DNA of 64,000 bases from Eggerthella sp. YY7918 (lineage in GTDB: Bacteria; Actinomycetota; Coriobacteriia; Coriobacteriales; Eggerthellaceae). The notes beneath the pieces are model-generated. The model had not been told where the DNA came from and did not search any database. It worked only from the letters and a program-made list of their open reading frames with translations. Location: assembly GCF_000270285.1 (NCBI RefSeq), contig NC_015738.1, positions 868,001 through 932,000 of the forward strand, in the 5' to 3' direction. Within the stretch, counting starts at the first letter, position 1; the number at the start of each line of letters is the position of its first letter. Below, one piece after another: positions 9,223-52,635 of this stretch. Both the position numbers and the translations under genes were made by a program.

Positions 9223-9969
9223 TTGCCAGTATGGTGTCAAATGTGGCGTATGCCGCAGAACACGGAAGTTTGGGGCGCATTGGACAACACCTGCAAAAAG
9301 AGCGAGGGGTCGACGCGTACGAAAGCTACCGCTCCTGTGCGCGACAAAACGCGCGATAGACGTTTTGTTCGCACGGAACAGGCTATTCGCGAGGCGTTCC
9401 TTCGCCTGATTGAGGAGCAGGACTTCCATAAGATCACGGTAACAGCCATTGCGCGCGAGGCCGATATCGACCGTAAAACGTTTTATCTTCATTACGAAAC
9501 GGTAGATGCTGTGGCAGATGCCCTAATACGCGAGGAAGCCGAGAGCTTTGTGCGCATGTTGCGCGAAGGGTCGTTCTTCGACGGGGATACGGTGGATGTG
9601 ACGGAGTTGTTCCTGGACCTGAGTGCCCGTCTTGCGCCGGATCTTTTGCGGACGAAGAAGATACACGAACACGTTACAGCAGAAGAGCTGCTCGGGAAGA
9701 TTGAAGCGCCGCTCACCGAGGCGCTCATAGAAGAGGATCGGTTCGATCTGGCGGAGTCGGGACCCTACGTGAGCTATTGCGTATCGTTTTTTATCGCTGG
9801 GCTGTTGGCGGTATATCGGCGTTGGCTTCTCAGCGACTCCGAGATTCCCCTTGAGGATATTTCGGCTGTCGCGAATCTTGCCGCATCTTCCGGTATCAAC
9901 GGACTACGTCAAAGTATCGGCCTTGTCGCCGGTGCCACAACGCAACATCCCGCTACCGAAGGCGAATAA
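9223..9969 (+). CDS. TetR/AcrR-family transcriptional regulator
   Basis: An N-terminal extension of about 45 residues precedes a classical TetR DNA-binding domain: RTEQAIREAFLRLIEEQDFHK in two pieces, then the helix-turn-helix ITVTAIAREADIDRKTFYLHY and the start of the ligand-binding helices. The C-terminal domain is helical and of ordinary length. The start is uncertain. TTG 9223 has an AGG site 6 nt upstream; ATG 9241 or 9250 are alternatives. It is divergent from the radical SAM gene, its likely target. Its stop is 5 bp upstream of the left 48-bp repeat of the adjacent cassette. Confidence 0.88.
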   Translation: MPVWCQMWRMPQNTEVWGALDNTCKKSEGSTRTKATAPVRDKTRDRRFVRTEQAIREAFLRLIEEQDFHKITVTAIAREADIDRKTFYLHYETVDAVADALIREEAESFVRMLREGSFFDGDTVDVTELFLDLSARLAPDLLRTKKIHEHVTAEELLGKIEAPLTEALIEEDRFDLAESGPYVSYCVSFFIAGLLAVYRRWLLSDSEIPLEDISAVANLAASSGINGLRQSIGLVAGATTQHPATEGE

Positions 9970-9974
9970 TAGGC

Positions 9975-10022
9975 TTCTCGGTTGTTCAGCAAAAAGAGCA
10001 AAAGACGATGGCAAAACAAGAG
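9975..10022. repeat. Left 48-bp direct repeat bounding a 4.3-kb cassette
   Basis: This 48-bp segment recurs at 14278-14325 with a single mismatch (g/a at 9989). The sequences just outside both copies are unrelated. It lies 5 bp after the TetR stop codon. Confidence 0.85.
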
Positions 10023-10213
10023 CATCGGAAGCAGGCTGCGAGATTAAAGCTAGTTGGTTACAAGAGTCTGTTGAAATATGCGTCGTTGAGCGTCCTACTC
10101 CAAAGATACTTCACGGTCTAATCCATTGAGACTAGCAGCATGAATAGTTAATCCTATATTGTTAAAAGAGTATTGAGCTATCTCAGCTACAAGTTCACTG
10201 CACCCTCGTATTC

Positions 10214-10243
10214 TTGCACACGGTGCACTTCCAGATCTTTATA
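10214..10243 (+). promoter_or_regulatory. Probable promoter/operator in the 330-bp gap 9970-10299
   Basis: TTGCAC (10214-10219) and TTTATA (10238-10243), 18 bp apart, precede the LuxR gene. A palindrome TGCACACGGTGCA overlaps the -35 element and could be an operator. The rest of the gap is AT-rich and, apart from the 48-bp repeat, shows no gene. Confidence 0.4.
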
Positions 10244-10299
10244 TGTGGCATCGCGAGAGAACAATCATTGTAATCATTAATCAAGGGGGGATTGATCTT

Positions 10300-11781
10300 A
10301 TGGTTGCGAATGAAGTAAAAGGCGATAAGGGAAAAGAAAAACTAGAAGGGCGTAAAGCGATACGCCTTGGCTCTAGAAAAATGCTGCTTGTTACCGTTGG
10401 TCTTGGTTTCTATTTGGCGTGGCTCATGATTAGTATTACTCCCACAATTTACGATGGATTGGTGGGTCAAACTCTCAATATTTTAAACAATACTGAATTT
10501 ATTGGACGTATATTGAGCATAGTGCCACTTGTGTTTCTAGCTGCTTTTAATTTTAAGCAAACATTCTCCGTCAATGTGTTTATGGTCGTTCTTGGCGTTG
10601 TGATCAGCGTCTGTACTCTGACTCTCTATGTCATGGGTGTTCTTGCAATCAAGCAAAATGAACCAATTACGGAGTGTATTGCCGCAATGGGCATGGGATT
10701 CTCAATATGTATTGCAGTGGTGTGGGGAAAATCCTTTTGCCAGCTAGATGAAGTAGCGGCCTTGCGTTGTGTGGCTGGAGCGCATCTTCTTGCCTTCGCT
10801 TTGACCTTGTTTGGTAGCGTCTTGCCAGGAGTCTTTTCGGCTCTGCTCCACATTATTGTTATTCTCGGGTCAGCTGTTGTGTATGTCGTTCAAAGCAGAA
10901 TCGAAGTCGAACAAGATTCTGTAAAGCCTACTAAAACAGGTGCCTTGCCCAAATTCTATAAAGTGAAAATAATGTTTGGCATTTCAGCGTTTGCTCTTAT
11001 CATGCAATATCTTTTTAGTATGTCTGAAGGAAAAAGTAACTCGCCCAATGAAGTTCTTTGGATTATAGCGGGTGTAATTGTTTGCCTGATCTTTCTTCTA
11101 TTTTCATGTTTGCTTGGCAAAGAGATTAGAACCATGAATCTCTCAAAATTTGTTCTTCCCTTGTTCGTGCTCGGAGAGTTCTTCATATTCTCTTTTGATT
11201 TCGAACAAAGCCCCATTGAGGTTTTTGCAATGGGCTGCGCTTGGGTTTACTTCAGAATTTTCTATTTCATGGCATGGCGGGCTGTTGCAATAAAAGGGGG
11301 ACGATCGGCTATACGAGTATTTGCTTTAGGGGAAGCATTGATCGTGATTGCCGGTATGCTCAGTACTGCATATGCCTTCGTTGCCGAGAGGTGGCTCAAT
11401 GAGTTCACTACTATGTTTGCCATATGCCTATTTGCGATCATTGCATCGCAAATCTGTTTTGCCAACGAAAGTGGGTTGAAGGGTCAACGACTTGTAGTGC
11501 TTGATGGAACCAATGATGCTCTCTATGAGGCGTGTGCTGAGTCGGTCGCGCAAGAATATGGTTTGTCGCGCCAAGAACGCATTATTGCGACTATGCTCAT
11601 AAAAGGATATGAGAACGAGGATATTCAAAACGAATTGGTTATTGCCTACAACACGCTCCGTACCCATCTGCGCAATATGTATAGAAAAACAGGAGTTCAT
11701 AGCCGTCAAGAGTTGGTCGTCTTACTTAAATCACCCCTGATGGCGGATGATAATCTAAGTAATCCAAACATACTGCACTAG
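10300..11781 (+). CDS. Membrane LuxR-type transcriptional regulator
   Basis: The 493-aa product has about twelve hydrophobic segments (residues 25-410), followed by a C-terminal LuxR/FixJ helix-turn-helix at about 425-485 (LSRQERIIATMLIKGYENE, then NTLRTHLRNMYRKTGVHSR). This architecture, a transporter-like sensor joined to LuxR HTH, is common in Eggerthellaceae next to catabolic or respiratory genes. The ATG at 10300 follows AAGGGGGG; an upstream in-frame ATG at 10243 lacks such a site. It lies inside the repeat-bounded cassette, 111 bp before the flavin reductase gene it probably controls. Ligand unknown. Confidence 0.88.
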   Translation: MVANEVKGDKGKEKLEGRKAIRLGSRKMLLVTVGLGFYLAWLMISITPTIYDGLVGQTLNILNNTEFIGRILSIVPLVFLAAFNFKQTFSVNVFMVVLGVVISVCTLTLYVMGVLAIKQNEPITECIAAMGMGFSICIAVVWGKSFCQLDEVAALRCVAGAHLLAFALTLFGSVLPGVFSALLHIIVILGSAVVYVVQSRIEVEQDSVKPTKTGALPKFYKVKIMFGISAFALIMQYLFSMSEGKSNSPNEVLWIIAGVIVCLIFLLFSCLLGKEIRTMNLSKFVLPLFVLGEFFIFSFDFEQSPIEVFAMGCAWVYFRIFYFMAWRAVAIKGGRSAIRVFALGEALIVIAGMLSTAYAFVAERWLNEFTTMFAICLFAIIASQICFANESGLKGQRLVVLDGTNDALYEACAESVAQEYGLSRQERIIATMLIKGYENEDIQNELVIAYNTLRTHLRNMYRKTGVHSRQELVVLLKSPLMADDNLSNPNILH

Positions 11782-11892
11782 TACTTCATTCTTACACTGA
11801 GACATAGCTTTTGCCCAGTTCTTTCGACGCTAAAGTAAATTGCAGCAGCGTTCAGCTGTCATGCATGTTCCTATGATGACGAAAGAGAGGGA

Positions 11893-13368
11893 ATGATGGG
11901 AAAGAACATTGAACGGCGTCAGTTTCTTCGCATAGCAGCAGGGGCCGCTATCGCCACTGGCGCGAGTGCAGCTTTGGTGGGGTGTGGAACAGGTGGCGGA
12001 AAGGGTGGATCGAGCGGATCAGATTCCGAGCAAGTTCTTGGATGGACCGAGATAAACTTTGAGCATGATGTCGATGTTTGTGTTGTAGGCGCTGGCGGAT
12101 CAGGTCTTCCTGCGGCCTACAATGCCGCTACAGCGGGATGTAATACGCTTTGTATCGAAAAGCAATCAACGTATGGTGGAGATGCGGCTAATTCGGCCAA
12201 TACTTGGTGGGTGCCGTATGCATCTGTTACTGCGGATTTACGTCCAGGGGAAGAGTCCCCTTTGCAGGACCAAATCGATAGCGTTGACAAATCCTATGAG
12301 CCCGGTACAGAACTCAATGCATTAAACAAAAAGTGGTATGAGTACGTCGATAAATGGATGAGTATCTTAACTTACGACATGAACGCTCAATGGCAAGAGT
12401 CGGTTCCTTGCGTCTATAAAGGGTGCTATTGGCCTGAGGGCGGAATTGGACAAGGTCAAAAGTTTTGGGCGAACGTTCAGCAGCATGTGGAAAGTGCTGG
12501 AGTTAAATTCGTTTACAACATGAAAGCGGATACTTTTATTGTAAACGCAGAAGGAAACGTTGTCGGTTTACGTTGCTATGACACCGCAAATGAACGCTGG
12601 GTCGATATTAAATCAAAAGCTTTTATACTCGCTACCGGGGGTTTTGCTGCAAATCAAGATATGGTTGCCGAGTACTATCCCGAACTTGTTACCGTTGGCT
12701 GTGTTACCACCGAGGCGATGGGTGAAGGTATTCAGCTTGGTCAGTCAGTGGGAGGTAGTTTGCTTGGAATGAGTGGCGAGGTTAATTGCAATCCTCATCT
12801 TGAGTGCATCCATGTGTCTCAGTCGATCGGCCGCTCTATAAGCATTTTGCCAAATGGGCATCGTTTCCATAATGAGTCTCGCGTTCATATGGGGCCCACT
12901 AATTGTATAGCCGCCGGATTTTGGGAATGGTGGGTCATTTTTGATGATGACATCCTTAATGGCCCCAGTGCGCTCAATGTGGAAAAGACCGAGCAATATA
13001 GGGTAACCGGCAATACGGTTGAAGAGCTGGCTGCGGCCATGAATATGCCGGCTTCGGTTGTGCAAATAGGGTTTGATGAGTACAACGCGGTTTGTGATGC
13101 TGGTGTTGACGAAGCTTTTGGTCGTACATTTAAACTGGAAAAGCTTGAACCGCCTTACTACGCAATGAAGCTCAGTCCGCGTCGCTATAAGACCGCAGGT
13201 GGTCTTCGCGTTGACGTGTCTGGACAGGTGCTCAATGAAAGCGGAGACCCTGTAGCGGGGATTTTTGCATGCGGCTGCACGGGGGGAACAACCGACATTC
13301 CTCCTGCGGGAGCTTCGGGTCTAATCGCAGGTGAAGGTGCTGCAGCCTATGTGAAATCGTTGTCCTGA
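11893..13368 (+). CDS. Tat-exported FAD-dependent reductase (fumarate/urocanate reductase-like)
   Basis: The 491-aa product starts with a Tat signal (ERRQFLR, 7-13) and a lipobox-like LVGC (28-31), so it is probably exported folded and lipid-anchored. A FAD-binding Rossmann motif VVGAGGSGLPAAYNAA follows at about 66-80. The C-terminal FAD contact (TAGGLRVD ... GIFACGCTGG ... PPAGASGLIAGEGAA) is typical of the FccA/UrdA/FrdA flavoprotein family. There is no haem or FMN domain in the chain; electrons must come from the cytochrome encoded 37 bp downstream. The acceptor (fumarate, urocanate, a cinnamate-like enoate or other) cannot be told. ATG at 11893 or 11896; a GAGAGGGA site precedes both. 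Confidence 0.88.
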   Translation: MMGKNIERRQFLRIAAGAAIATGASAALVGCGTGGGKGGSSGSDSEQVLGWTEINFEHDVDVCVVGAGGSGLPAAYNAATAGCNTLCIEKQSTYGGDAANSANTWWVPYASVTADLRPGEESPLQDQIDSVDKSYEPGTELNALNKKWYEYVDKWMSILTYDMNAQWQESVPCVYKGCYWPEGGIGQGQKFWANVQQHVESAGVKFVYNMKADTFIVNAEGNVVGLRCYDTANERWVDIKSKAFILATGGFAANQDMVAEYYPELVTVGCVTTEAMGEGIQLGQSVGGSLLGMSGEVNCNPHLECIHVSQSIGRSISILPNGHRFHNESRVHMGPTNCIAAGFWEWWVIFDDDILNGPSALNVEKTEQYRVTGNTVEELAAAMNMPASVVQIGFDEYNAVCDAGVDEAFGRTFKLEKLEPPYYAMKLSPRRYKTAGGLRVDVSGQVLNESGDPVAGIFACGCTGGTTDIPPAGASGLIAGEGAAAYVKSLS

Positions 13369-13405
13369 GTAAGCGGAATTAGCTTTTAGCGAAAGGAGGC
13401 GAATT

Positions 13406-14029
13406 GTGACTGTAGAAAAACCATACTCTGATATCCCAAATGAAGGCGAACAAGAGCCTCTTTTGAAGAAAGACAAAAAGTCTCAGAAAAAAGATTTAAA
13501 GCACTCGCATAAAAAATTATTTGCTGGTGTAGGAGTTTTGGCTGTAATTCTTGCGGTGGCGGGAGCAGGTTTTTGGGTCTGGCACGAACAGCCCAGTTTC
13601 TGTGACGCATTATGTCATTATCCGATGAATACCTATGTTGATAACTATTCAGAGGGCGATGGTATGGCGAGGATACATGCTGAAGCGGGAGTTACTTGTC
13701 TTGAGTGCCATCCTGCGTCTATCTCTCAACAGGTCAGCGAAGCATTTACATGGGTGACGGGCGATTTTAAAAATGAGTTGGATATGATCGAATACGACAA
13801 TGCAACTTGTTTGACATGTCATATTTCGATGGAGTTTCAAGCATCGAAAACCGATATGCTTGAAAAGAACCCTCACGCTGATGCTCACCAGGTACTTCAA
13901 TGTACCGATTGTCACCGATCGCACCGCGATCAAAACGACTACTGCGCACAGTGCCATGATAATGGGGATATGCGGATGCTAACATTTCCTCCCGAAGGGC
14001 ATGAGTTGATAGACGAGCCGAAAGAATAA
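13406..14029 (+). CDS. NapC/NirT-like membrane-anchored pentahaem cytochrome c
   Basis: The 207-aa product has a basic N-terminus, one membrane anchor (about 38-60) and five haem motifs: CDALCH (66-71, a CX3CH type), CLECH (98-102), CLTCH (135-139), CTDCH (166-170) and CAQCH (180-184). It would take electrons from menaquinol and pass them to the exported flavin reductase encoded upstream. A perfect AAAGGAGG site selects the GTG at 13406 as start. The first haem motif with three intervening residues is unusual. The gene ends the cassette operon and is followed by a hairpin. Confidence 0.9.
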   Translation: MTVEKPYSDIPNEGEQEPLLKKDKKSQKKDLKHSHKKLFAGVGVLAVILAVAGAGFWVWHEQPSFCDALCHYPMNTYVDNYSEGDGMARIHAEAGVTCLECHPASISQQVSEAFTWVTGDFKNELDMIEYDNATCLTCHISMEFQASKTDMLEKNPHADAHQVLQCTDCHRSHRDQNDYCAQCHDNGDMRMLTFPPEGHELIDEPKE

Positions 14030-14054
14030 TATTTTCTTACGTCCCCCTCCCTTA

Positions 14055-14088
14055 ATACGAGGGGCTGTCTGAAGACGGTCCCTCGTAT
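14055..14088 (+). terminator. Hairpin after the cytochrome gene
   Basis: ATACGAGGG / CCCTCGTAT with an inner GTCT/AGAC pairing. Only a weak T-rich tail follows. The remaining bases to 14277 show no convincing gene. Confidence 0.6.
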
Positions 14089-14277
14089 CTATGAATATCT
14101 ATTCCATTGAAGATGAGCAATACGAGTGAGTCGAACTACTAGTGCTTTTAGTGCTACGGCGGAATACCAACTGAAAATAGTTGCTCTATGCGTACTGTTC
14201 ACAGCTGGAATCTCAAGAATGGATTATGCCGGTACTCTTTCCGGCGCTGAATGGCAAGATTGGGGTTTCATGATGCG

Positions 14278-14325
14278 TTCTCGGTTGTTCAACAAAAAGA
14301 GCAAAAGACGATGGCAAAACAAGAG
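14278..14325. repeat. Right 48-bp direct repeat bounding the cassette
   Basis: This copy matches 9975-10022 at 47 of 48 positions in the same orientation. It ends 13 bp before the putative promoter of the riboswitch transcript. Confidence 0.85.
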
Positions 14326-14366: not shown

Positions 14367-14369
14367 ATC

Positions 14370-14514
14370 GGCTACGGGCAAACCCGTCGAAAGACGGTGA
14401 CGCAAAGCTAAAGGGCCTTCGCCGCGTGCGGCATGGCAGCCAGTTGCAAAGAACGAGTGAGGGACTGTACTCAGTTCCGGCTGTTTTGCGCGCTGGCCGG
14501 CAAGGGAGTACGGT
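14370..14514 (+). promoter_or_regulatory. Cyclic-di-GMP-I (GEMM-I) riboswitch with SD-sequestering platform
   Basis: The aptamer shows the conserved GEMM-I parts in order: GGGCAAACC, P2 stem CCGTC-GAAA-GACGG with its GAAA tetraloop, the joining segment GACGCAAAGC, and a P3 arm ending near GGCAGCC (to about 14447). Downstream, ACTGTACTC (14464-14472) can pair over 9 bp with GAGTACGGT (14506-14514), with an inner CCGGC/GCCGG stem (14477-14481 / 14496-14500). That hairpin would cover the Shine-Dalgarno AAGGGAG and abut the ATG at 14515, which suggests translational control of the surface protein by c-di-GMP. Whether binding turns the gene on or off cannot be read from sequence. Confidence 0.88.
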
Positions 14515-17325
14515 ATGAACGCGAAACGATCATTCTTAGTCGGCACGTTTGCAGTCCTTCTTGTCTGTGCTCTGTTGAGCGTTCCGATTTTTTCCTACGC
14601 AACTGACGAGGTGGCTCTTACGTCTCCTGCCGTAAGCGAGGAGGAGCTACTGACTCCTTCCATTGAAGAGCCGACGCTCAGCGAAAACGGTGATGCCTCC
14701 AATAGTATTGACAAGTCGACTGAATCTGCAGGTGATTCGACCGATCTCGGAGCTGATTTGTCGCCCGACTCATATGCCGATTCTGCAACCCCCCCCCTCG
14801 CTTCTGAGCCTTCTTCTAAAAATGCTCCATCCATGAGGAGCGCTTCTGCTTCCTCTGACGAATCAGCCAAGACAACCGCGGAATCTCCCATCACGCTGGA
14901 GGGTTCGACCCTGTATGCGAACGGCACTTCTATTGTCATCAAGAAAGACACCGATGGTAAGGCGTATGTGTTCGATGCCGCTGGCACGACGAAGCTTGAT
15001 GAGAGTCCGCTTGGCTCAAGCCTTGTTGTGTATGGCGGCGGCAAAAAGACCGCGGTTGAAGGCAATACGAGCATCACTATTGATGGTGTGTACGTCATGC
15101 GCGTGTACGGCGGTGGGTATAACGCACCGGTTTCTGGAAGTACGCAGGTAACCATTAAGAACGTGAACACGGGCACGGTATATGGCGGCGGTTATTCTGA
15201 CGGTACCGGAAATGCCGACGTGGCCGGCAATGCAACGGTAACATTGGGCGGTTCGGGAACAAAAACCGCAGTTCATGGTGGAGGATATGCTGAAAGCTCA
15301 AAGGGAAATGCTTCGGCAAATGTTGTAGGTTCTGTCGTAGTGCAGTGCGAGGATTTTTACCATCAGAGAGGCAGCTCGGTCTACGGCGGTGGGTCCGCAA
15401 CGTCTTCGAATGAGTTCAATGCAAGTGCGACAGTGGGTTCGGTGAGCGTGAGCGGCTCTGGCCCGACGTATTCCATACGTGGCGGCGGCTATGCGACGGC
15501 AACGAATGCCGGTTCTGCCTGTGCCGATGTGCTTGGTCCTATCACTTTGCAGATGAGCGACGCCGACATTCGCGAGGTGTACAGTGGCGGGTATGCGAGC
15601 GGCGCAAACGCTTCTGCTACGGCAGCCTCGGTGAATACGACTCTCACCAAGACCGAGGTAATGATACTTTACGGCGGCGGCACGGCAAGCGGCGGCGTGG
15701 CTGATGTGTCTGGGCAAGTGAATGTTGTCATCGATTCGAGTCCCAACCTTTATGGTTATACCTATGGCGGCGGGGAAGCTTCATCGGGTGGTAGCGCCGA
15801 TGTGGCGGCTACGGCGATAACCATTCGCAATTCCAATGCACCTATCGAAGAGCAAAAAGGTTCGGCGGTTGCCCAAGCGATATACCTTGGCGGTGATACG
15901 TCGGGGGCGGGATCTCATGCCAATATTAGTGATGCAGCTACGCTTACCATCGAGGGCGGCACTATGGCGGGCAATATTTACGGCGGTGGATCGGTTTCTG
16001 GCGGCGCGTCCGGAACGGTTGGTTCAAGCAGTATTAGTATCAACGGAACAGCCGGTTCGGACTACAGCGGCGACAAAGGCTATCTGAGTGTTTTTGCGGC
16101 GGGCGAAACCGACGGAGCAAACCCTGCGCTTGCCCAGAGTTCTGCTTCGGTTGCGCTCAACAACACAACGGTTGAGCATGTGTGGGGTGCCGTGACGGCA
16201 AATGGTTCCCCGACGGCCCCTGATGCCTTCGTTTCCGTGTGCATGGATAACGCTACGGCATCGACTATTGCCTGCGTGGATGAGATCGACACCAACGCAA
16301 CTGTCGAATTGCAAGCGTTTTTGTGGAAGGCCGACGAAACGCCTACGATGGTGACGACGCGCGGTCTCAAGGCGGGCGATGCGGCTATTGCGTGTGCCGA
16401 TACCGATTCGGCGGCAAACTGGTTTGCTCTTCGCAACGGGGCGTTTGACTACATTCAAGACGAGAACGGCAAGTCTGTTTGGAAAATTGCCGAGCGTCAT
16501 GCTTCTGCTGGTGTGGAGAATGTTGGTGGCGGCGAAAGCGCACCGACTGTTTCGGTTCCGGAAGAAGCCGATCTTGCCGACAGCGTCATGACTGAGGGCG
16601 ATAAGCAGGCGCTCCAAGCGGGAAGCACGGTTAAGATTATTCTGCAGGTTGCCCCCAAGGCTCCTGAGGAGCTTGACGAGCAAACGCAAAGCGCCGTGAC
16701 GGAGATAGAGGAAAAAAGCAATATTACGGTTGCCACCTATCTTGATATTGAACTTTTGAAGGTGATCGACGGCACACAAGAAACCATCACTGACACGCCA
16801 AAACCTGTGCGACTGACCTTTGCCATTCCTGCGGAGTATCTTGTCGACGGGGTCGATCGTACGTTTTCCGTGGTGCGAACACATCAAAATCCTGATGGCT
16901 CCCTTACGTCCGAGGTTCTGCCGGATTTGGACGACGATCCTGCAACGGTAACCATCGAAACTGATAAGTTCTCGGTGTATGCGCTTGCCTATGCCGATTC
17001 CTCTGCCATCATTCCTCCCACTCATCCAACCGATCCTGGGAATAGCGGCAATCCCTCTGGCGGATCGAACGGATCGGGAAATGGTAATATTCCTGTAGCG
17101 AACGATCCGGGCAGTAACAACCCAACGAAACTTCCAGGGGTTAATGACCCTGCGCAGAACACCAAGGCTCCTTCGACACTTTCGCGTGGCATGTTGTATT
17201 CCAAGACCGGAGACAACGGAGCCGCCCTCGCTCATCTTTACGGCGGCATTGCGTTAGCTGCTGGAATTACCGCGTGTGCTGCGCTCCTGCGTCTGCATGC
17301 CCGTCGTACGCGACAGCGCTCGTAA
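14515..17325 (+). CDS. Large secreted repeat-rich surface protein (putative adhesin)
   Basis: The 936-aa product has a Sec signal peptide (1-31, ending SYA), then an acidic Ser/Thr-rich stretch to about 120. A Gly-rich repeat region (about 150-500) repeats the pattern VYGGGY/IYGGGS with intervening Ala/Asp/Val strands, consistent with a beta-helix. A non-repetitive domain at about 680-820 (ADLADSVMTEGDKQALQAG onward) resembles a domain common in Gram-positive wall proteins. A Pro/Gly/Asn-rich spacer follows, then SKTGD, a hydrophobic segment and a basic tail (RLHARRTRQRS). This is the layout of a sortase signal, though the usual LPxTG is not seen. It is preceded by a c-di-GMP riboswitch, so a role in attachment or biofilm is inferred. 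A C9 tract lies early in the ORF. Confidence 0.85.
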   Translation: MNAKRSFLVGTFAVLLVCALLSVPIFSYATDEVALTSPAVSEEELLTPSIEEPTLSENGDASNSIDKSTESAGDSTDLGADLSPDSYADSATPPLASEPSSKNAPSMRSASASSDESAKTTAESPITLEGSTLYANGTSIVIKKDTDGKAYVFDAAGTTKLDESPLGSSLVVYGGGKKTAVEGNTSITIDGVYVMRVYGGGYNAPVSGSTQVTIKNVNTGTVYGGGYSDGTGNADVAGNATVTLGGSGTKTAVHGGGYAESSKGNASANVVGSVVVQCEDFYHQRGSSVYGGGSATSSNEFNASATVGSVSVSGSGPTYSIRGGGYATATNAGSACADVLGPITLQMSDADIREVYSGGYASGANASATAASVNTTLTKTEVMILYGGGTASGGVADVSGQVNVVIDSSPNLYGYTYGGGEASSGGSADVAATAITIRNSNAPIEEQKGSAVAQAIYLGGDTSGAGSHANISDAATLTIEGGTMAGNIYGGGSVSGGASGTVGSSSISINGTAGSDYSGDKGYLSVFAAGETDGANPALAQSSASVALNNTTVEHVWGAVTANGSPTAPDAFVSVCMDNATASTIACVDEIDTNATVELQAFLWKADETPTMVTTRGLKAGDAAIACADTDSAANWFALRNGAFDYIQDENGKSVWKIAERHASAGVENVGGGESAPTVSVPEEADLADSVMTEGDKQALQAGSTVKIILQVAPKAPEELDEQTQSAVTEIEEKSNITVATYLDIELLKVIDGTQETITDTPKPVRLTFAIPAEYLVDGVDRTFSVVRTHQNPDGSLTSEVLPDLDDDPATVTIETDKFSVYALAYADSSAIIPPTHPTDPGNSGNPSGGSNGSGNGNIPVANDPGSNNPTKLPGVNDPAQNTKAPSTLSRGMLYSKTGDNGAALAHLYGGIALAAGITACAALLRLHARRTRQRS
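14789..14797 (+). repeat. C9 homopolymer tract inside the surface protein gene
   Basis: Nine consecutive C residues encode Thr-Pro-Pro-Leu at about codons 92-95. Loss or gain of one C would shift the frame and truncate the product before its repeat domain. In this assembly the frame is intact. Confidence 0.9.
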
Positions 17326-17475: not shown

Positions 17476-17580
17476 GTATCTCGGATGGGCTGGGGCGGCG
17501 CCATGTTCCGAACCTGGTCAGGTCCGGAAGGAAGCAGCCATAAGGGACCGCTGACGAGCGCCCCTGCCTATCCGGGATAC
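17476..17580 (+). ncRNA. ffs: Signal recognition particle RNA (4.5S, small bacterial type)
   Basis: The diagnostic domain IV is present: GGTCAGGTCCGGAAGGAAGCAGCC in two pieces, including the GGAA tetraloop and the AGCAGCC internal loop. Flanking strands pair into one long hairpin (GTATCTCGGAT with ATCCGGGATAC; GGGGCG with CGCCCC). It is the RNA core of the SRP, working with Ffh in membrane protein targeting. The ends are set from the outermost pairs and may be off by a few bases. Confidence 0.95.
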
Positions 17581-21625: not shown

Positions 21626-21691
21626 CCGTCGGGACATCTGAGCGGTTCTATCCCAAGGGGCTGCGAATCGCGATGCATTTTGTCTCACGAT

Positions 21692-21707
21692 TGTTTCACG
21701 TGAAACA
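21692..21707. other. parS centromere site (ParB binding)
   Basis: TGTTTCACGTGAAACA is a perfect 16-bp palindrome identical to the chromosomal parS consensus recognised by ParB/Spo0J. The usual location of such sites is the origin-proximal part of the chromosome, in keeping with the neighbouring dnaX-recR. No second copy was noticed in this window. Confidence 0.85.
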
Positions 21708-21716
21708 TTGGGGATA

Positions 21717-21736
21717 AGTCTCAAAAAGTGTGTCCG
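21717..21736. repeat. 20-bp repeat, probable IS end (copy 1)
   Basis: AGTCTCAAAAAGTGTGTCCG occurs here and again at 21806-21825 in the same orientation, both upstream of a transposase fragment. They look like terminal sequences of one IS type left by partial deletion. Confidence 0.55.
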
Positions 21737-21805
21737 AAAATGTTCGTATCCCCAGTTCAGAATGCGCGAAACCATGCAATAAGTTGATCCGTCCCAACTT
21801 TTCAC

Positions 21806-21825
21806 AGTCTCAAAAAGTGTGTCCG
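21806..21825. repeat. 20-bp repeat, probable IS end (copy 2)
   Basis: Identical to 21717-21736; lies 63 bp before the truncated transposase, the position expected for its left end. Confidence 0.55.
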
Positions 21826-21888
21826 GTCTGCTCTTGACATGCCTGTTCAGAGATTCTTTTCAAGGAAAAAGTTGGCTCTGGGCGGGAG

Positions 21889-22010
21889 ATGGGTGTGGAT
21901 AATCCAAAGTGCGAAGCCTGCGGTAGCGCGATGAAGAGAAACGGCAGGACCTCAGCGGGTGCGCAGAGATGGAGATGCAAGGCGTGTGGGGCAAGTTCAA
22001 CTCACAGGGT
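21889..22010 (+). pseudogene. Truncated transposase, zinc-ribbon N-terminus only (IS1249/IS256-like)
   Basis: About 40 codons encode CEACGSAMKRNGRTSAGAQR and WRCKACGASSTHR, the Cys4 zinc-ribbon head of IS1249-type transposases (the C/C..C/C pairs bracket NGRTSAG). The similarity stops at about 22010, and the reading frame continues into unrelated sequence with no catalytic domain. It is therefore a 5' remnant. Confidence 0.65.
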
Positions 22011-22076
22011 CGGATTGGTTCGGTTGATGTGTACATTGACGGCATTTAATTCGCACGTTAGGCGGCCGAGCATTTC

Positions 22077-22287
22077 ATGGGAGCAAAACGACATGAGCGG
22101 ACGCGTGCCCGACGAGCCGCGATCCAAGTGCTGTACATGGGCGAAATCAGGGAATTGTCGCCTTTGACCATAGCTGAATCTGATGACAGCCACCTTATCG
22201 AAGGTGGCCCGATTCCTGTGTATGCGCTTGAATTGGTGCGCGGTGTGTGCGAACATCCGAATGAAGTTGACGAACACCTGACGGCTC
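22077..22287 (+). pseudogene. nusB fragment (5' part)
   Basis: The first 70 codons match the NusB N-terminus (KRHERTRARRAAIQVLYMGE, then YALELVRGVCEHPNEVDEHL). At about 22287 the similarity ends and the frame runs into dxs-like sequence. NusB (antitermination and rRNA processing) is normally about 150 residues, so this copy cannot be functional; an intact gene is presumably elsewhere. Confidence 0.65.
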
Positions 22288-22319
22288 CTCTGAAAACTGG
22301 TCGTTGGGACACATTGCAA

Positions 22320-22560
22320 AACGCCTGGATGGCGCGACATGGCCGAAGGGGTCGCTGCCTGAGAAGCCTGAGGTATTTCCCGAGGGCAAAGCGCATGTTG
22401 TGCGCGAAGGGGATGGCGTGGCTATTCTGGCGTTTGGGCGCATGGCGCCGCGCGTTAGGCGCAGCAGAGTTGCTGGAAGCGCAAGGGGTCGATGCGCGTG
22501 TGGTTGATATGCGTTGGGTAAAACCGCTTGATGCTGAAGAGATGCCGAGGGTATTGCTGC
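22320..22560 (+). pseudogene. dxs fragment with frameshift
   Basis: One frame reads PKGSLPEKPEVFPEGKAHVV and GDGVAILAFGRMAPR, and about 22455 shifts to the frame reading AAELLEAQGVDARVVDMRWV and KPLDAEE. Together these match the C-terminal transketolase domain of 1-deoxyxylulose-5-phosphate synthase. The copy lacks its N-terminal two thirds, has a frameshift, and is fused out of frame to the nusB fragment. Confidence 0.65.
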
Positions 22561-22610
22561 GTCGATTCGAGAGCACTGGGAGTCGTTACAAATTTTGGGG
22601 GCGGTAGTTT

Positions 22611-25238
22611 ATGGCCGTGATACAAATTAAGAAGTCTATTGTTGAACAAAAGATTGTCATTCCAGATTATGCTCGTACCTTTTTGTCGCGACCGCGTCTA
22701 TTCGAAATGCTGCAAGAAATTGAGAAAAAGCCCCTTGCTGTAGTGCGGGCTCCACTTGGATTTGGTAAGACTACGCTTATTGCATCATGGGCTCGGCGAA
22801 CTCGCATGCCTGTTGCATGGCTCACTATCGATGAAGGGGATAACGACCCTTCACGCTTATGTCGTTACTTGATAGCTTCCTTCGATACTCTTGATGATTA
22901 TAAAGGTAATTTTAGTGATGCAATGGCTTCCTCGTATCAAAGCATCACCGATTTTGTTGATGATGCTCTCATTTGTTTTCAAAATGCAAGTGATGATGTG
23001 GTGCTTGTAATTGACAACTGTCATTTTCTTGCACAGGAGGGTGAAGCGTGGAGTATTCTAGCAAAGATAATCAATTTTGCCCCTCCTTGTTTGCATGTTA
23101 TTCTTAGTACACAGACAGAACTGAAAATGGATTTGTCGACCTATCGTTCTCAAGACAAGCTTGTCGAAATTGACGAACGCCATCTTCGGATTACGGAAGG
23201 TGAGGCTCGGTCCTTTTTTCGGCAGATGTCATGCGTGTCTTATGAATGGGTGCAAGAAGCAAATAGGTATCTTGAAGGTTGGCCTATAGCATTAGCTTTA
23301 CTGCGTCGGACTTTGCTACAGGATGATCAGGAACATCTCCCTCCGAAAGAGGGCGTTGCGTTGACAGAATGCGTTTCTCTCAAGTCTCCATCTGATGTTG
23401 TATATATGTGCACTCACTGGTGTGATGAGGTTGTTAATCGGTTGTTTCTATCACTTAGTGAAGAATTGCAAAGCCAGGTGCGGGTGATCGCGTGTCTCGG
23501 AACTTGTTCTGAAGGACTTGCTGCTCACGTTATGCAAATGCCGTCGAATGAAGTACCTTCAATCGTGGCTAGATTGGTCAGTGAAGGAATTTTGAGACGC
23601 TGGAATGATCCTCATGGACAAGCATGGTTTGGTGTATCAAACTTTATTCGGGATGTTTGTAGGCGAGAGGCATCTGAATCAGATCAAGAGACTTGGTATA
23701 TTCGTGCAGCTCAATGGTATAAGGATCATGGGATGTTTAACCAAGCAATTGAATATGCCACGCTTGCAAAAGAATATGACCTCGTTGAAAAAATCGTCTG
23801 GAATCGCTTTATGACGATGTTTAAGGGTTCTGAGTTTCGAACAATAGATGAATGGATATCAGTGCTTCCAGAAGCAAGCCTTCAAAAGCCAAGGATTCAT
23901 CTGATGCGCAGTTTGCCTATGGCACAAGGAAGAAGATTTGATGCGATGGATGAGTCTATTGCATCGGTAATGCACGCCCTTGATGAAAGCCGAAAAGATA
24001 GATTTTATTGCTTAGCAAAAATCTGCACAGCGTGTGCAAAAGCCACGAGTGCGCATCGTCTTGAAGCTCGAGCTTTTGCTCAAGAGGCTCTTTCTTTGTT
24101 AGGCGAAGAAGATGTATATTTGCGTGGCATAGCTCACCAAATTGTCGCAGAGTCTTATATGGAAAGCGACATAATCGAAATGTTGAAACGTTTAACGTCG
24201 TTGTACGAAAAGGGAGAATGGAGACTCGATTCGTACTACGGGCATTCTCTGCTTTCGACTATAACCATGGTAAATAGCATGTTGGGATGCTTTCGTGATC
24301 AGGATGTCCTCGATAAGACGCTATCACGCTATGCTTCATCATCTGAAAATGATCCCTCGTTTATAAGAATGCGACTTGGGGAAGCTGGCAGAAACTGTCA
24401 TGAGGCCAATACTCATGACTCACATTTGATTGCAAAAGAAATTGAGGACGAGGTGCTCGCTAATGGTATTGAAATTGATATTGCGTATTTGTACGGAATT
24501 GAATCGATCAATGCGTTTTGTGTAGGGGATATAGAAGATTCAAAACGTTTGTTTAGTTTAGGGTTGAAAGAGTCACCGCTCTTTTTGTCGTATGCGCATC
24601 CAAGTATTTCGCAGATTAAAGCCATGTTTCCATTAGGGAAAGAAATACCGCAAGTTCTCTCTGAACTATGCATCGACAAAGATCAGCCAGCACTCTCTAG
24701 GATCAAAGCGCTTTCTATATATGCATCGACAGGATTTATACCAGTTCGCAATGTGCCAAACTATGTTGTAGGCATACCAAAAGAGCGTCCCATGGAACGC
24801 TTCTTGTGGTTGCTCATGCTTGTGTATTTTAACGAGATAAGCGGCAAAGCAATGGTTGCTGATAAATACATGTTAGAAGCGCTTGCTATTGCTGAAAAAG
24901 AGGGTTATCAGCAAGTGTTCTTCAATGAGGCTTCATGGATCTTTTCCATTTTGAAGCGAACTGTCAATAAAGAGTCACTTTTCCAAACTTCTCTGTTGAA
25001 AAGTATGCCACAAGGCTGCAGGAATGTTGCAGCGGTAAAAAGTCTTACACCTCGAGAAAGAGAAATTGCTAGTTTCTTTGATTCGGATCTTTCGTATAAA
25101 GAGATTGCTGAAAGGCTTTTTATTGCTGAAGAGACTGTTCGCAAGCATACAAAACGAGTGTTCGCAAAGCTTGGAGTTCATTCGCGCGTTCAGGCAGTTT
25201 ATGTTCTCCATAATCAGGTTGAAAAATCTACCAACTGA
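22611..25238 (+). CDS. MalT-like large ATP-binding LuxR regulator
   Basis: The 875-aa product is a LAL/STAND-type activator. The N-terminus has the MalT signature (VIPDYARTFLSRPRLFEML) and Walker A APLGFGKTT (47-55), followed by VAWLTIDEGDNDPSRLCRYL and a Walker B-like VVLVIDN. A long helical TPR-like region occupies about 380-790. The C-terminal LuxR HTH is at about 810-870 (LTPREREIASFFDSDLSYKE, then EETVRKHTKRVFAKLGVHSR). Codon use is AT-rich compared with housekeeping neighbours. The ATG at 22611 follows GGGGGCGG, just downstream of the pseudogenes. It probably activates the Mo-reductase operon that begins 138 bp after it. Confidence 0.9.
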   Translation: MAVIQIKKSIVEQKIVIPDYARTFLSRPRLFEMLQEIEKKPLAVVRAPLGFGKTTLIASWARRTRMPVAWLTIDEGDNDPSRLCRYLIASFDTLDDYKGNFSDAMASSYQSITDFVDDALICFQNASDDVVLVIDNCHFLAQEGEAWSILAKIINFAPPCLHVILSTQTELKMDLSTYRSQDKLVEIDERHLRITEGEARSFFRQMSCVSYEWVQEANRYLEGWPIALALLRRTLLQDDQEHLPPKEGVALTECVSLKSPSDVVYMCTHWCDEVVNRLFLSLSEELQSQVRVIACLGTCSEGLAAHVMQMPSNEVPSIVARLVSEGILRRWNDPHGQAWFGVSNFIRDVCRREASESDQETWYIRAAQWYKDHGMFNQAIEYATLAKEYDLVEKIVWNRFMTMFKGSEFRTIDEWISVLPEASLQKPRIHLMRSLPMAQGRRFDAMDESIASVMHALDESRKDRFYCLAKICTACAKATSAHRLEARAFAQEALSLLGEEDVYLRGIAHQIVAESYMESDIIEMLKRLTSLYEKGEWRLDSYYGHSLLSTITMVNSMLGCFRDQDVLDKTLSRYASSSENDPSFIRMRLGEAGRNCHEANTHDSHLIAKEIEDEVLANGIEIDIAYLYGIESINAFCVGDIEDSKRLFSLGLKESPLFLSYAHPSISQIKAMFPLGKEIPQVLSELCIDKDQPALSRIKALSIYASTGFIPVRNVPNYVVGIPKERPMERFLWLLMLVYFNEISGKAMVADKYMLEALAIAEKEGYQQVFFNEASWIFSILKRTVNKESLFQTSLLKSMPQGCRNVAAVKSLTPREREIASFFDSDLSYKEIAERLFIAEETVRKHTKRVFAKLGVHSRVQAVYVLHNQVEKSTN

Positions 25239-25375
25239 ACCTGAACTGCGTTTAAGTGTTTTTCTACCCCTTGTACCCTTTTTAATATACCCCAAATGGG
25301 GCTATATGCTTTCTTTTTAGAGGTTTACCTTTCTTTAAAGCGGGAGAGCCGCTCAAGTAAAGAAGGGGGATAGAA

Positions 25376-28069
25376 ATGGCTGAAAATGTCGGTATGTCAC
25401 GCAGGGGGTTTATTGCGGGAGTATCAGCGCTCGCTTTAGGCCTTTCAGCAACAGGATGCTCAACAAGTACTGGCAGCAAAGCAAAAGAGGGAAGCGAAGC
25501 GAAAGAGGAGAAGTGGATACCTACCACCTGTAACGGTTGCTTTAATCGTTGCGGCATACTTGCTCACGTCGTGGATGGTGTTGCTATGGAGCTAAAAGGC
25601 AATCCCGCAAGCCCTGTGGGCGGAGGGCATATATGCGCTCGTGGTGCAGCGGGCCTCATGCAATTATATGATCCAAATCGATTGACAAAACCGCTCAAAA
25701 GGACCAATCCCGAAAAGGGCTTTGACAAAGATCCTGGTTGGGAAGAAATAACGTGGGATGAGGCATATTCGCTATTAGAAGAAAACCTCCAAGCTGCTCT
25801 CGAGAAAAATCCTCAGGGAGTTGCAAAAAATGGCATGGTTGCTAATTTAGCGGGCACAATGATATCTTCGTTTGCGCTTGGGGCTGTATATGGCTGTGGC
25901 ACCTCGGCTCTTGCTGCAGACCTTTGTGGAACGGGCGATCATACGTGCTATAACATTTTTACAGGCGACGGTAATGCGTGCCCGGATTATCCGAACAATA
26001 AATATCTTGTTCAGTTTGGATCACAAGCAGCTATTGCCACGAGGCATGGTTTTAATATGAGTTGTTCGGTATATGCTGAAAGCCGCGCCAATGGCGCTAA
26101 GCTCGTTAACATTGATCCACATATGAGTGCGGCCGGTGCAAAGGCTGATCAATGGATTCCTATTCGTCCTGGTACTGACGCTGCTGTTGCTTTGGCTATT
26201 GCGAATACGATTGTTAATGAATTGGGAGTATATGACGCAGAATTCTTGAAAACGCGTACCAATATCCCATCATTGGTGGACCCGACAACAAATCGCATTG
26301 TACGAGAAGCTGGGACAAATAAAGCCTTGTATTGGGATGTGTCGGATAATAGTGCAAAACCTTATGATGCTTGCGCTGATCCTGCTCTTGAAGGTACGTA
26401 TATCGTGAATGATATCGAATGCGTTGTGGCATTCGACCTATACAAAGAACATATTGCAAGTTATACGCCAGAATACCAGGAGCCGATTACGACTGTTCCT
26501 GCTGACATTATTCGCAAGCTTGCAAAAGAAGTTGTAGAAGCTGCATGTATAGGAGAAACGACAACTATTGGTGAATTTACCATTCCGTATCGTCCGGTTG
26601 CATTCGACTGTTTCTCAGGTACAACACGACATAAACATGCATTGCTGACAAACTATGCAATCATGAGTTTAAATGCCTTGGTAGGATCCATATATGCAGT
26701 GGGCGGCTTTATTGGTTTTGCTGGTGCTTGTCATGGCTGGACTGATGATGATCGGCATGTTTCTTGGTACCCCGGAATCTGGGAAGAAGATGGTCTTATT
26801 GAAGCAGTCGGTATGATTACGGCATTGCCTGAATCGTATTATCGTGATTTGCGAGAGCGCGATTATACGCCCATCAATGAGACTATGACCAGTTTGACTC
26901 CACTTAATGTGGATGGACACTTCTCTCACATTGCGCAGGCAAACCCTGATCATTGGAAAACCACACCGGCAACATTTCTTTGGTATCAAGGCAATAACTG
27001 CATGAAGTTCTATGGCAATTATGAGGAGCAAGAGAAAGTTTATTCTGAGTTTGATTATGTGGTTGGTTGGGACATCTACCTTAACGATACATCATATTAT
27101 GCCGACTTAATGCTTCCTGAAGCGAGTTACCTAGAGCGCTATGACCCTCTGCCTAGTAATTTCAACAACCATACGACACCAGGTGGCGTTAATGTTCCGT
27201 GGGCGGTAACCATCAATCAGCCAGTTGTACCCGCTCGCGATGATGCCCCATGCGTTTTGCAAGTTTGGTCTGACTTAGCGGATCGTGCCGGTGCGACGGC
27301 AAATCTTGTTGGCTCGCTTAATGTTGAGTTCAAAGTTAAAGAGGAACTCTCCGTTCCATTTGATAAAAAACTAGATATCTATGAGTACATGGATTCGATT
27401 TATAAGTCAGTAGTTGACGAGGAACATGATTTGGCTTGGTTCCAGGAAAACGGTGTGTACACCCATGATCGTGATGTTGATGAAGTATATATCTGGGCTC
27501 AGGGAGATCCAGGACGAGTGCCTTTGTATTGGGATTTTGCCTACGAGATCAAAGAAAAGGTCGATGCAAAAACTGCGGAACTCGGAATTCCGTGGGAGAC
27601 TGATGATTATCAGGCTTTTCCTGAATGGAAACCTTGTTGCGATCATGAAATAACCGATCCCGATTATGATACGTATCCTATTTACTACACTGATGCAGTT
27701 AACACAGATACCTGGCAAGTTGAGAACCCGTGGATTAACGAGCTAAACGAAAGAAACCCATTCGGTTACGCTATTGAAATGAATGCAGGCTCGGCTCGAG
27801 AAAAGGGTCTCGAAACTGGTTCTGCAGTTCGCTTGGTTAATAAGGATGGCGTGTCTGTTGAGGGTGTCATTGTAACTTCTGAATGCATACATCCCGAATG
27901 CGTGTCAGTTATTGGTGGACATTGGGGATCGAAGTCAGAGTTCTTACCATGCGCGAAAGATAAAGGGGTTCCTATTGCAACCTTAGTAAGTGGCTGGGAT
28001 CCTGAGCGCATGGATTATACATGCGCTGCGTTTGATCAGTGCATTCGTGTAAAAGTCGAGAAAATGTAG
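25376..28069 (+). CDS. Tat-exported molybdopterin oxidoreductase, catalytic subunit (DMSO reductase family)
   Basis: The 897-aa product begins with a Tat signal (MSRRGFIAG) and an ATGC lipobox-like site. A [4Fe-4S] motif CNGCFNRC...C follows (C52, C55, C59, C87), then the Mo-bisPGD domains and a C-terminal dinucleotide-binding domain (NPFGYAIEMNAGSAREKGL onward). It would reduce an external acceptor with electrons from the ferredoxin subunit encoded next. The substrate is not evident: DMSO/TMAO-like, thiosulfate/polysulfide, or the catechol dehydroxylase group known in Eggerthella are all possible. No membrane anchor subunit (DmsC/NrfD) is present nearby. GAAGGGGG precedes the ATG. AT-rich codon use. 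Confidence 0.9.
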   Translation: MAENVGMSRRGFIAGVSALALGLSATGCSTSTGSKAKEGSEAKEEKWIPTTCNGCFNRCGILAHVVDGVAMELKGNPASPVGGGHICARGAAGLMQLYDPNRLTKPLKRTNPEKGFDKDPGWEEITWDEAYSLLEENLQAALEKNPQGVAKNGMVANLAGTMISSFALGAVYGCGTSALAADLCGTGDHTCYNIFTGDGNACPDYPNNKYLVQFGSQAAIATRHGFNMSCSVYAESRANGAKLVNIDPHMSAAGAKADQWIPIRPGTDAAVALAIANTIVNELGVYDAEFLKTRTNIPSLVDPTTNRIVREAGTNKALYWDVSDNSAKPYDACADPALEGTYIVNDIECVVAFDLYKEHIASYTPEYQEPITTVPADIIRKLAKEVVEAACIGETTTIGEFTIPYRPVAFDCFSGTTRHKHALLTNYAIMSLNALVGSIYAVGGFIGFAGACHGWTDDDRHVSWYPGIWEEDGLIEAVGMITALPESYYRDLRERDYTPINETMTSLTPLNVDGHFSHIAQANPDHWKTTPATFLWYQGNNCMKFYGNYEEQEKVYSEFDYVVGWDIYLNDTSYYADLMLPEASYLERYDPLPSNFNNHTTPGGVNVPWAVTINQPVVPARDDAPCVLQVWSDLADRAGATANLVGSLNVEFKVKEELSVPFDKKLDIYEYMDSIYKSVVDEEHDLAWFQENGVYTHDRDVDEVYIWAQGDPGRVPLYWDFAYEIKEKVDAKTAELGIPWETDDYQAFPEWKPCCDHEITDPDYDTYPIYYTDAVNTDTWQVENPWINELNERNPFGYAIEMNAGSAREKGLETGSAVRLVNKDGVSVEGVIVTSECIHPECVSVIGGHWGSKSEFLPCAKDKGVPIATLVSGWDPERMDYTCAAFDQCIRVKVEKM

Positions 28070-28082
28070 CGAGGAGTGCATC

Positions 28083-28688
28083 ATGGCGTACGGTATGCTT
28101 ATTGATCTAAAAAAATGCGTGGGGTGTCATGCTTGCTCTACTAGTTGCAAAGGCGCAAACGCAACCCCTCCTGGAGTTCTACGCGCTTGGGTCGATAGAG
28201 AGGAAAGTGGTTCCTATCCTAGTGCAACGGTTACATTTGTTCCGAAACTTTGCAACCAATGTGATAAACCTCTCTGTGTAGTTGCCTGCCCTAACGGAGC
28301 TACTGAAAAGCGCGAGGATGGGGTCGTGGTTATTAACAAAGAAAAGTGTGTTGGGTGTAAGACTTGTATGGAGGCATGTCCATATGATGCTCGCTATCTT
28401 GTTGCTGATGCAAAAGGATATTTTGGCGAGGACTTAACTGAGTATGAGGCACGAGGTTATACAGCCTATCCTGCTATGACGGTAGACAAATGCGATTTCT
28501 GCATGAGTCGTACTGCAGAAGGGGAGACCCCCGAGCCCGCTTGCGTGGCGGCATGTCCAGCTGGAGCGCGCCTTTTTGGCGACGCGGATGAACTTCGGGA
28601 AAAGGCACTTGCAGGAAATGGAATGGTACTCAATGAGGATGCGGGCACTGATCCAAACGTATTCTATCTTCCAGACGTGAAGTATTAG
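28083..28688 (+). CDS. Four-cluster ferredoxin subunit (DmsB/NrfC-like)
   Basis: The 201-aa product carries four [4Fe-4S] motifs: CVGCHACSTSC near the N-terminus, CNQCDKPLCVVAC, CVGCKTCMEAC, and CDFCMSR with CVAACPAGAR. This is the electron-transfer subunit of DMSO-reductase-type enzymes. It starts 13 bp after the catalytic subunit gene with a GAGGAG site. It lacks its own Tat signal, so it is probably exported with the catalytic partner. A perfect hairpin lies between it and the chaperone gene. Confidence 0.93.
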   Translation: MAYGMLIDLKKCVGCHACSTSCKGANATPPGVLRAWVDREESGSYPSATVTFVPKLCNQCDKPLCVVACPNGATEKREDGVVVINKEKCVGCKTCMEACPYDARYLVADAKGYFGEDLTEYEARGYTAYPAMTVDKCDFCMSRTAEGETPEPACVAACPAGARLFGDADELREKALAGNGMVLNEDAGTDPNVFYLPDVKY

Positions 28689-28699
28689 AACCTTCTTAA

Positions 28700-28738
28700 G
28701 GGATCGGGAAGTTTGTGCGTCAAGGACTTCCCGATCCC
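28700..28738 (+). terminator. Intra-operon hairpin between ferredoxin and chaperone genes
   Basis: A 13-bp perfect stem GGGATCGGGAAGT / ACTTCCCGATCCC without a T run. It may damp expression of the downstream chaperone relative to the structural subunits. Confidence 0.55.
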
Positions 28739-28759
28739 TGATTAGTAAAGAGAAAATAG

Positions 28760-29383: not shown

Positions 29384-29430
29384 ATAGGACAATAGCTGGC
29401 TCGGCAACATATCTTCAATTTGGCACAAAA

Positions 29431-29500
29431 AGAGGGACGGTGTCGTCCCTAAAGGAAGAAGAAGGGTTCTGCCCCCTCCAAAAACAGAACCCTTTTCTTT
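29431..29500 (+). terminator. Double terminator ending the Mo-reductase operon
   Basis: GGGACG/CGTCCC is followed by AAGGGTTCTG (29462-29471) / CAGAACCCTT (29485-29494) with a TTCTTT tail. It marks the right edge of the AT-rich block. Confidence 0.8.
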
Positions 29501-47571: not shown

Positions 47572-47582
47572 GGGGGTGCAGT

Positions 47583-49082: not shown

Positions 49083-49134
49083 CGCCATCGAATGTACGTC
49101 GATAGAATATCATTGCAACGAAAGGAACGAGTTT

Positions 49135-50244: not shown

Positions 50245-50296
50245 GGCTTTCGCCGAGGGTTCGTCGGCTAATCCCTTTTTGAGCAGGTTAGCGTTG

Positions 50297-50324
50297 CAAG
50301 GGGTCGAGATGTCTCGGCCCCTTG
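50297..50324. terminator. Bidirectional terminator between operon 1 and the LuxR gene
   Basis: CAAGGGG-t-CGAGA / CTCGG-CCCCTTG with a 3-nt loop, placed between convergent aguA and luxR stops. Confidence 0.65.
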
Positions 50325-50327
50325 TGC

Positions 50328-52622: not shown

Positions 52623-52635
52623 AGAACTGACAAGC

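Follow-up and report, generated by a model that had tools for sequence, protein, structure and literature searches.

A candidate integrase-less islet of respiratory genes between 48-bp direct repeats in Eggerthella sp. YY7918

In the genome of Eggerthella sp. YY7918 (NC_015738.1), a membrane LuxR-type regulator, a flavin reductase and a multihaem cytochrome c are encoded behind a tetR gene and between two copies of a 48-bp sequence, and the question raised by this locus is how the three genes came to stand there. The stretch analysed, hereafter the window, comprised 64,000 bp (contig positions 868,001 to 932,000). The repeats are probably the two junctions left by insertion, behind tetR, of an accessory islet (regulator, flavin reductase and cytochrome) without an integrase, recombination having been supplied in trans. 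The matter bears on how Eggerthella acquires its reductases, which vary between strains and on which, in gut Eggerthella, the range of drugs, plant toxins and food compounds transformed depends (PMC5953540, PMC9734109).

Repeat pair and enclosed insert

The repeats and the sequence between them were annotated as follows.

9975..10022, + strand: left copy of the 48-bp direct repeat, 5 bases past the tetR stop codon
10023..14277, + strand: AT-rich insert between the repeats, 4255 bp, guanine-plus-cytosine (GC) content 0.454
10300..11781, + strand: membrane LuxR-type regulator with a hydrophobic N-terminal part and a C-terminal GerE domain, start at 10300 or 10243
11893..13368, + strand: flavin reductase of the twin-arginine translocation (Tat) type, FAD_binding_2, flavocytochrome c family, start at 11893 or 11896
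13406..14029, + strand: membrane-anchored multihaem cytochrome c, Cgr1-like, Cytochrom_c3_2 (Pfam)
14278..14325, + strand: right copy of the 48-bp direct repeat, 41 bases ahead of a riboswitch

The recurrence of the 48-bp segment in the same orientation with one mismatch, reported in a first-pass annotation of the window, was borne out with 47/48 identities at a spacing of 4303 bp. Identity between the copies dropped to 88% when the alignment was extended to 64 nt, i.e. it fell off sharply past 48 bp, and under an independent-base model the chance expectation for such a pair in the window was ca. 7e-18. When the 3.12-Mb genome and 40 others were searched, only two copies of the 48-mer were found in the own genome, and eight of the 40 others gave matches with E≤0.1, the best covering 32 of 64 nt at 88% (E 5e-4, genome G015) and the rest being shorter. 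The first-pass annotation had allowed that the 48-mer might be a conserved regulatory element standing before many genes, which was rejected on the count of two copies. Both copies are readable as an open stretch, RLF(S/N)KKSKRRWQNKS. An origin as the 3′ end of tetR was rejected, as the nearest orthologue (in G092) stops at the corresponding position and the repeat's reading occurred in none of the 19 TetR ends among those listed. A phage or plasmid origin was likewise rejected, the 48-mer giving no match against plasmids and viral contigs and only chance-like 23-nt matches against phages.

The insert was AT-richer than its surroundings, as first noticed by inspection (GC content 0.454 against 0.573 and 0.558 in the adjoining sequence). 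The GC content at third codon positions (GC3) of its three genes was 0.41–0.44, compared with 0.59–0.76 for tetR, the radical S-adenosylmethionine (rSAM) gene, aspS, the VTT-protein gene and dnaX. In composition the insert is foreign. Pfam searches of the three open reading frames (ORFs) identified no recombinase domain, in agreement with the first-pass annotation, nor any integrase, transfer or transposase domain, serine recombinases being covered only in this way. A single borderline inverted match between the two ends of the insert was within chance for 30 comparisons, and none was convincing. An integrative and conjugative element (ICE), integrative and mobilizable element (IME) or prophage with its own integrase was set aside, no integrase gene being found between the repeats (tyrosine integrases; serine recombinases via Pfam on the three ORFs), as was an insertion sequence or composite transposon on the missing transposase domain and the chance-level inverted end match. 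An integron gene cassette is unlikely, given three genes in 4.3 kb (no search aimed at attC sites was made).

The regulator (Pfam GerE, E 1.2e-12; ca. 11 hydrophobic segments) had 69 matches across the own genome. The reductase, predicted to be exported, has RRQFLR and a lipobox-like start (by eye) and is related to flavocytochrome c fumarate reductases. When it was aligned to 1qo8, the position that we take to be the catalytic arginine of fumarate reductase appeared not to be arginine, which makes fumarate doubtful as its substrate. The cytochrome carries five haem motifs (four CXXCH and one CXXXCH) and one hydrophobic segment, and it scored 127.9 bits against NCBIfam cytcCgr1, under the model cut-off of 340. 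By analogy, the LuxR protein may sense a compound and switch on the exported reductase, which would be fed electrons by the cytochrome. The genome holds 102 FAD_binding_2 matches, 72 of them taken as reductase-like loci, and the cassette reductase may be one inducible terminal reductase among ca. 70.

That the three genes form a module, as proposed earlier, was supported by their standing together again at two other places, one in the own genome (937.8–941.6 kb) and one in G106 (contig C55). The reductases of these sister trios (50% identity; 940.1–941.6 kb in the own genome) were the closest relatives and the only matches besides the query in a search at E 1e-110 in 137 genomes with at most 11 first-look candidates scored per genome. 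Both adjoin a cytochrome (55% and 65%) and a LuxR gene (29% and 24%), in the order reductase, cytochrome, luxR, compared with luxR, reductase, cytochrome in the insert. A scan of GTDB contigs with the reductase returned three distant proteobacterial loci; no plasmid relative of the reductase was found at E 1e-30, and no viral relative of the cytochrome was confirmed.

The site in related genomes

Comparison of the site involved the following neighbouring features.

9223..9969, + strand: TetR-family regulator, also the left neighbour in relatives, with an uncertain translational start
14367..14451, + strand: c-di-GMP-I riboswitch (Rfam RF01051, 65.9 bits)
14515..17325, + strand: large repetitive surface-protein-like gene without Pfam or NCBIfam match
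17483..17576, + strand: small signal recognition particle (SRP) RNA (Rfam RF00169), right border of the variable block, the same sequence being found past tetR in six relatives by blastn

A TetR protein family search gave matches in 113 of 138 genomes, with 20 loci listed, 19 of them from relatives, and long surroundings were compared for six relatives (G092, G093, G095, G072, G071 and G013). In all six, tetR was followed within ca. 0.6 kb by the SRP RNA and then by the VTT-protein gene, with dnaX beyond; rSAM preceded tetR in five, and G013 gave no rSAM match. The gap between tetR and the SRP RNA was in each case without the cassette, the riboswitch, the surface-protein gene and the 48-mer. 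The best 48-mer match was 20–23 of 48 in the six gaps, not above shuffles, and 24–27 of 48 across the whole fetched stretches. The surface-protein gene gave no tblastn match at the orthologous site in any of the six, and a 46% identical homologue was located at another place in G001. Because the relatives also lack the riboswitch and the surface-protein gene, the extra block was taken to extend from 9970 to ca. 17380. It is made of parts differing in composition, the surface-protein gene having a GC3 of 0.54, intermediate between the insert genes and the other neighbours, and the right repeat lies at a boundary inside the block.

In G092, a small unrelated ORF (by eye) separates tetR from the SRP RNA, and in G001, taken as the same genus, an old-yellow-enzyme-like gene (by eye) occupies the place of rSAM and tetR. 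The neighbourhood of tetR resembles a hotspot. Partial LuxR and flavin reductase matches were found between the VTT gene and dnaX in G072 and G071. Beside the orthologous site in G095, a 274-bp fragment of the rSAM gene is duplicated (L038, 3163-3436 and 6406-6679, 96%), and the duplicated fragment and the rSAM gene bound an ABC-type module (by eye). The far copy there is an internal fragment of the gene, and the case is only a possible relative of the pattern seen in the window.

Repeat-bounded inserts elsewhere in the genome

Own-genome stretches were scanned for direct repeats (at least 85% identity, 20 nt, spacing 1.2–14 kb), i.e. 53 stretches with LuxR genes and nine controls, followed by 16 around reductases and four controls. 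Together with the window this gave 83 sources and 1,383,171 bases (overlaps counted twice), 208,013 of them control. The three strongest pairs were located at the end of ychF (106 bits), behind metA (89 bits) and at the 48-mer (87 bits). The next-ranked pair (76 bits) linked 50.2 and 55.5 kb of the window, where genes are duplicated. Under a first-order Markov null, 60 of the stretches yielded three pairs, none above 30 bits. The control stretches held weaker pairs up to 54.5 bits, including palindromic TGTTTCACGTGAAACA-type repeats; one of the controls, L110, contains weak FAD-binding matches. A pair in L058 was set aside, being located inside two LuxR-type genes. The pairs considered further, besides the 48-mer, were the following.

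L088, 12458-15556 (own genome): post-metA insert, 58-bp pair (54/58) enclosing a LysR regulator and a Tat flavin reductase
L114, 1388-4894 (own genome): ychF insert, 58-bp pair (57/58) equal to the ychF 3′ end, enclosing a 3.4-kb AT-rich insert with three genes
L125, 6729-10427 (own genome): weaker fourth candidate, 24-bp pair (23/24, 41 bits) enclosing a reductase and a luxR gene divided between two ORFs

A small conserved gene follows metA, and the post-metA repeat is its C-terminal end. The gene, which has no Pfam family, was matched at 26 of 29 relative loci among those listed, 25 of the matches reaching the gene end. The two copies end in different stops (...FEDDPWN-TAG, and ...FEDGPWR-TAA in the far copy); three of their four differences are synonymous, and the fourth turns a conserved D into G in the far copy. 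A hairpin 3′ of the far copy (by eye) resembles the old terminator of the gene. At ychF, the cargo consists of a gene for an Mrr_cat/YARHG membrane protein, with weak PADLOC matches to Mrr-like nucleases, and genes for two further proteins, one of 297 aa without family and one of 188 aa that weakly matches PspB. In G004, the gene found here beyond the far copy stands ca. 110 bp after ychF. In both inserts the gene is completed by the copy attached to it, and the other neighbour follows the far copy, an arrangement with the topology of left and right attachment sites (attL/attR) or of a single crossover.

No recombinase or transposase domain was found in either insert, the 297-aa protein having no family. 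The three inserts are compact (3.0–4.3 kb), and their junction sequences (48, 58 and 58 bp) are mutually different. The expectation that further copies of the 48-mer itself would stand next to reductase genes thus failed. The same architecture at the ychF end and the post-metA gene end points to a recurring route. At the weaker candidate, GC content rises past the second copy, and controls reached similar scores.

Forty-nine stretches of relatives (40 from G004 and nine others) gave 111 repeat pairs, the 45 strongest of which were inspected, mostly by eye, with ORFs viewed for L038, L202 and L228 only. Several were judged by eye to be of another kind, i.e. a CRISPR-like array (L230), palindromic or dispersed repeats (L198, L208, L211, L213) and duplicated stretches (L215, L228). 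L202 and L207 were assigned to none of these kinds. L202 (13132-18244, in G004) holds a 265-bp direct repeat (95%) with copies 4.8 kb apart, the second of them close to where an atpC-like gene ends (by eye).

Origin of the insert

The cargo would have arrived on DNA, circular or otherwise recombining, that carried one junction copy. Recombination of this donor with a chromosomal junction copy would place the insert between two direct copies, like the attL and attR of a cis-mobilizable element (CIME). No recombinase domain having been found inside the insert, the enzyme would have come from elsewhere, and recombination in trans might be due to a site-specific recombinase encoded elsewhere or since lost, or to RecA acting on short homology. 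The circular donor, the recombinase in trans and the direction of events are what we infer from the repeats, the composition, the absence from the site in relatives and the recurrence. Insertion through the repeat is likely. The first-pass annotation had suggested insertion at, or excision through, the repeat, of which insertion agrees with the absence of the cassette from the site in six of six relatives and with the two further repeat-bounded inserts, but an empty site with one 48-mer did not come to light.

Several observations weigh against insertion of such an islet through the repeat. A strict empty site, i.e. tetR followed by one 48-mer and the riboswitch, was not found in the six relatives, and because these also lack the riboswitch and the surface-protein gene, the history of the site has at least one further step. 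Direct repeats around the sister trios were at most 36 nt long and at most 82% alike, none comparable, so that the 48-mer belongs to this insertion and not to the module. The repeats at ychF and behind metA overlap conserved gene ends, whereas the 48-mer overlaps none, and the ychF insert is without a reductase. Among 29 relatives, G004 alone offered an empty site at ychF; in G001 the neighbour gene was ca. 1 kb away, and the remaining 27 gave no match to it within 1.5 kb. Comparison of the ends of the three inserts gave no common motif (2 of 30 comparisons above the 95% shuffle level, about chance). The genome holds six Phage_integrase matches, the nearest ca. 170 kb from any of the three loci, in a search that covered tyrosine integrases, not serine recombinases, and three junction sequences would imply three specificities if a site-specific recombinase is invoked. 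Enrichment near reductases is not claimed because the controls were few (13 stretches). In the relatives, no gene-end pair of this kind was recognised among the 45 strongest of the 111, the looser G095 case aside.

A trans-acting recombinase is possible given the six distant Phage_integrase matches, and a RecA-type crossover on short homology explains the missing recombinases and the unrelated junctions about as well. Taken strictly, the latter would mean that foreign DNA with a short chromosomal homology entered by a single crossover, that no site-specific recombinase ever took part and that the islet is not a mobile element, an alternative that we hold possible, if tentatively. It accords with the lack of a recombinase domain in any of the three inserts (the family-less 297-aa protein at ychF noted), with three unrelated junction sequences sharing no end motif, with the mainly synonymous differences between the post-metA copies, as if one derived from a relative's gene end, and with the longer fragment duplication (274 bp, 96%) around the ABC-type module in G095. 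The junction lengths are, however, rather uniform and two junctions lie on gene 3′ ends, where site-specific recombinases commonly act; moreover, for RecA a homology of 48 bp is short in many bacteria. Somewhat doubtful is the decay of a full integrative element (ICE, IME or satellite), in which the integrase and transfer genes were deleted and the cargo was left between attL and attR. The anatomy fits the definition of a CIME (PMC5704250), and Dehalococcoides has 15 islands that hold reductase genes without an integration module (PMC3146451). Yet the ORFs searched gave no integrase or relaxase domain (the search did not extend to short debris between genes), all three inserts are compact, and the 48-mer was absent from plasmids and viral contigs, with only the chance-like 23-nt matches in phages.

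The repeat might instead have nothing to do with insertion and be a remnant of duplicated regulatory or coding sequence, such as an upstream region shared by luxR and the riboswitch gene, and each copy is indeed upstream of a gene's promoter region and readable as an open stretch. This is very unlikely, as identity drops sharply past 48 bp, composition differs on the two sides, no third copy was found in the genome, and inserts with the same kind of boundary stand at ychF and behind metA, with a gene end as the repeat. Similar lengths with different sequences, as when a target is copied, would also suit a long target-site duplication by an unknown transposition mechanism, which is improbable on finding neither a transposase domain nor convincing inverted ends. 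It is further opposed by the post-metA copies, which seem to have lived as gene ends and not to be a fresh copy, because of their four differences (three synonymous) and different stop codons. The islet insertion with recombination in trans is preferred. Its widest extension would be an undescribed route of the Eggerthellaceae, in which probably a recombinase acting in trans on 50–60 bp stretches at the 3′ ends of various chromosomal genes installs compact cargo islets (reductase with regulator, nuclease gene sets) and which serves as a main exchange path for their large, strain-variable reductase repertoires; in this general form we consider it quite unlikely.

Other regions of the window and the genome

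A second c-di-GMP-I riboswitch was located in the own genome at L049 5504-5587, again ahead of a surface-protein-like frame (by eye). After recR, the window contains a second, mostly AT-rich block without match in G092 (21626-29452), encoding a large LuxR-type protein, a molybdopterin-type oxidoreductase, an Fe-S subunit and a possible chaperone (names by eye). A tandemly duplicated multigene unit of ca. 5.1 kb occupies 46660-55530, the matching pieces being 70–80% identical.

Comparison with known systems

As a mechanism for the acquisition of reductase genes, islets bounded by repeats, placed at gene ends and without an integrase are a concrete and testable candidate, and they provide junction sequences that can be sought in collections of strains. 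Their recurrence hints at how these gut bacteria may swap respiration genes without an obvious mobile element. The available portions of the literature on Eggerthella reductases in connection with islands, integrases or transfer held no description of such islets.

The insert recalls the cgr cluster of Eggerthella lenta (Cgr1, Cgr2 and a transmembrane LuxR protein), a strain-variable set in which a cytochrome, a flavin reductase and a LuxR regulator are combined (PMC5953540, PMC9734109); unlike there, the cytochrome here stays below the Cgr1 cut-off. CIMEs of the ICESt1 type, defined as cargo between attL and attR without integration or transfer genes (PMC5704250), resemble the islet in that its cargo lies between attL/attR-like direct repeats and no integrase or transfer genes were found inside. 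They differ from it in that a single genome here has three junction sequences, neither a related full element nor a related integrase was identified, and mobility of the islet is putative. A single-junction empty site was not seen in the six relatives, which lack both the 48-mer and the riboswitch gene at the site; because the strict single-copy empty site was not found, the islet is not filed as a proven CIME, though its workings resemble those of one.

The ssrA islands of Dehalococcoides (vcr-GI and module-less islands) are, like the insert, of low GC content, carry respiratory reductases and are bounded by a direct repeat of a gene 3′ end; 15 of them lack an integration module, and these 15 hold 38 rdhA genes in all (PMC3146451). 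There, according to the same report, one target is used (ssrA, with a 20-bp repeat) and many neighbouring islands carry the integrase DsiB, whereas here the targets differ, the repeats are 48–58 bp long and no recombinase was found. These islands are the closest biological precedent for the insert behind tetR.

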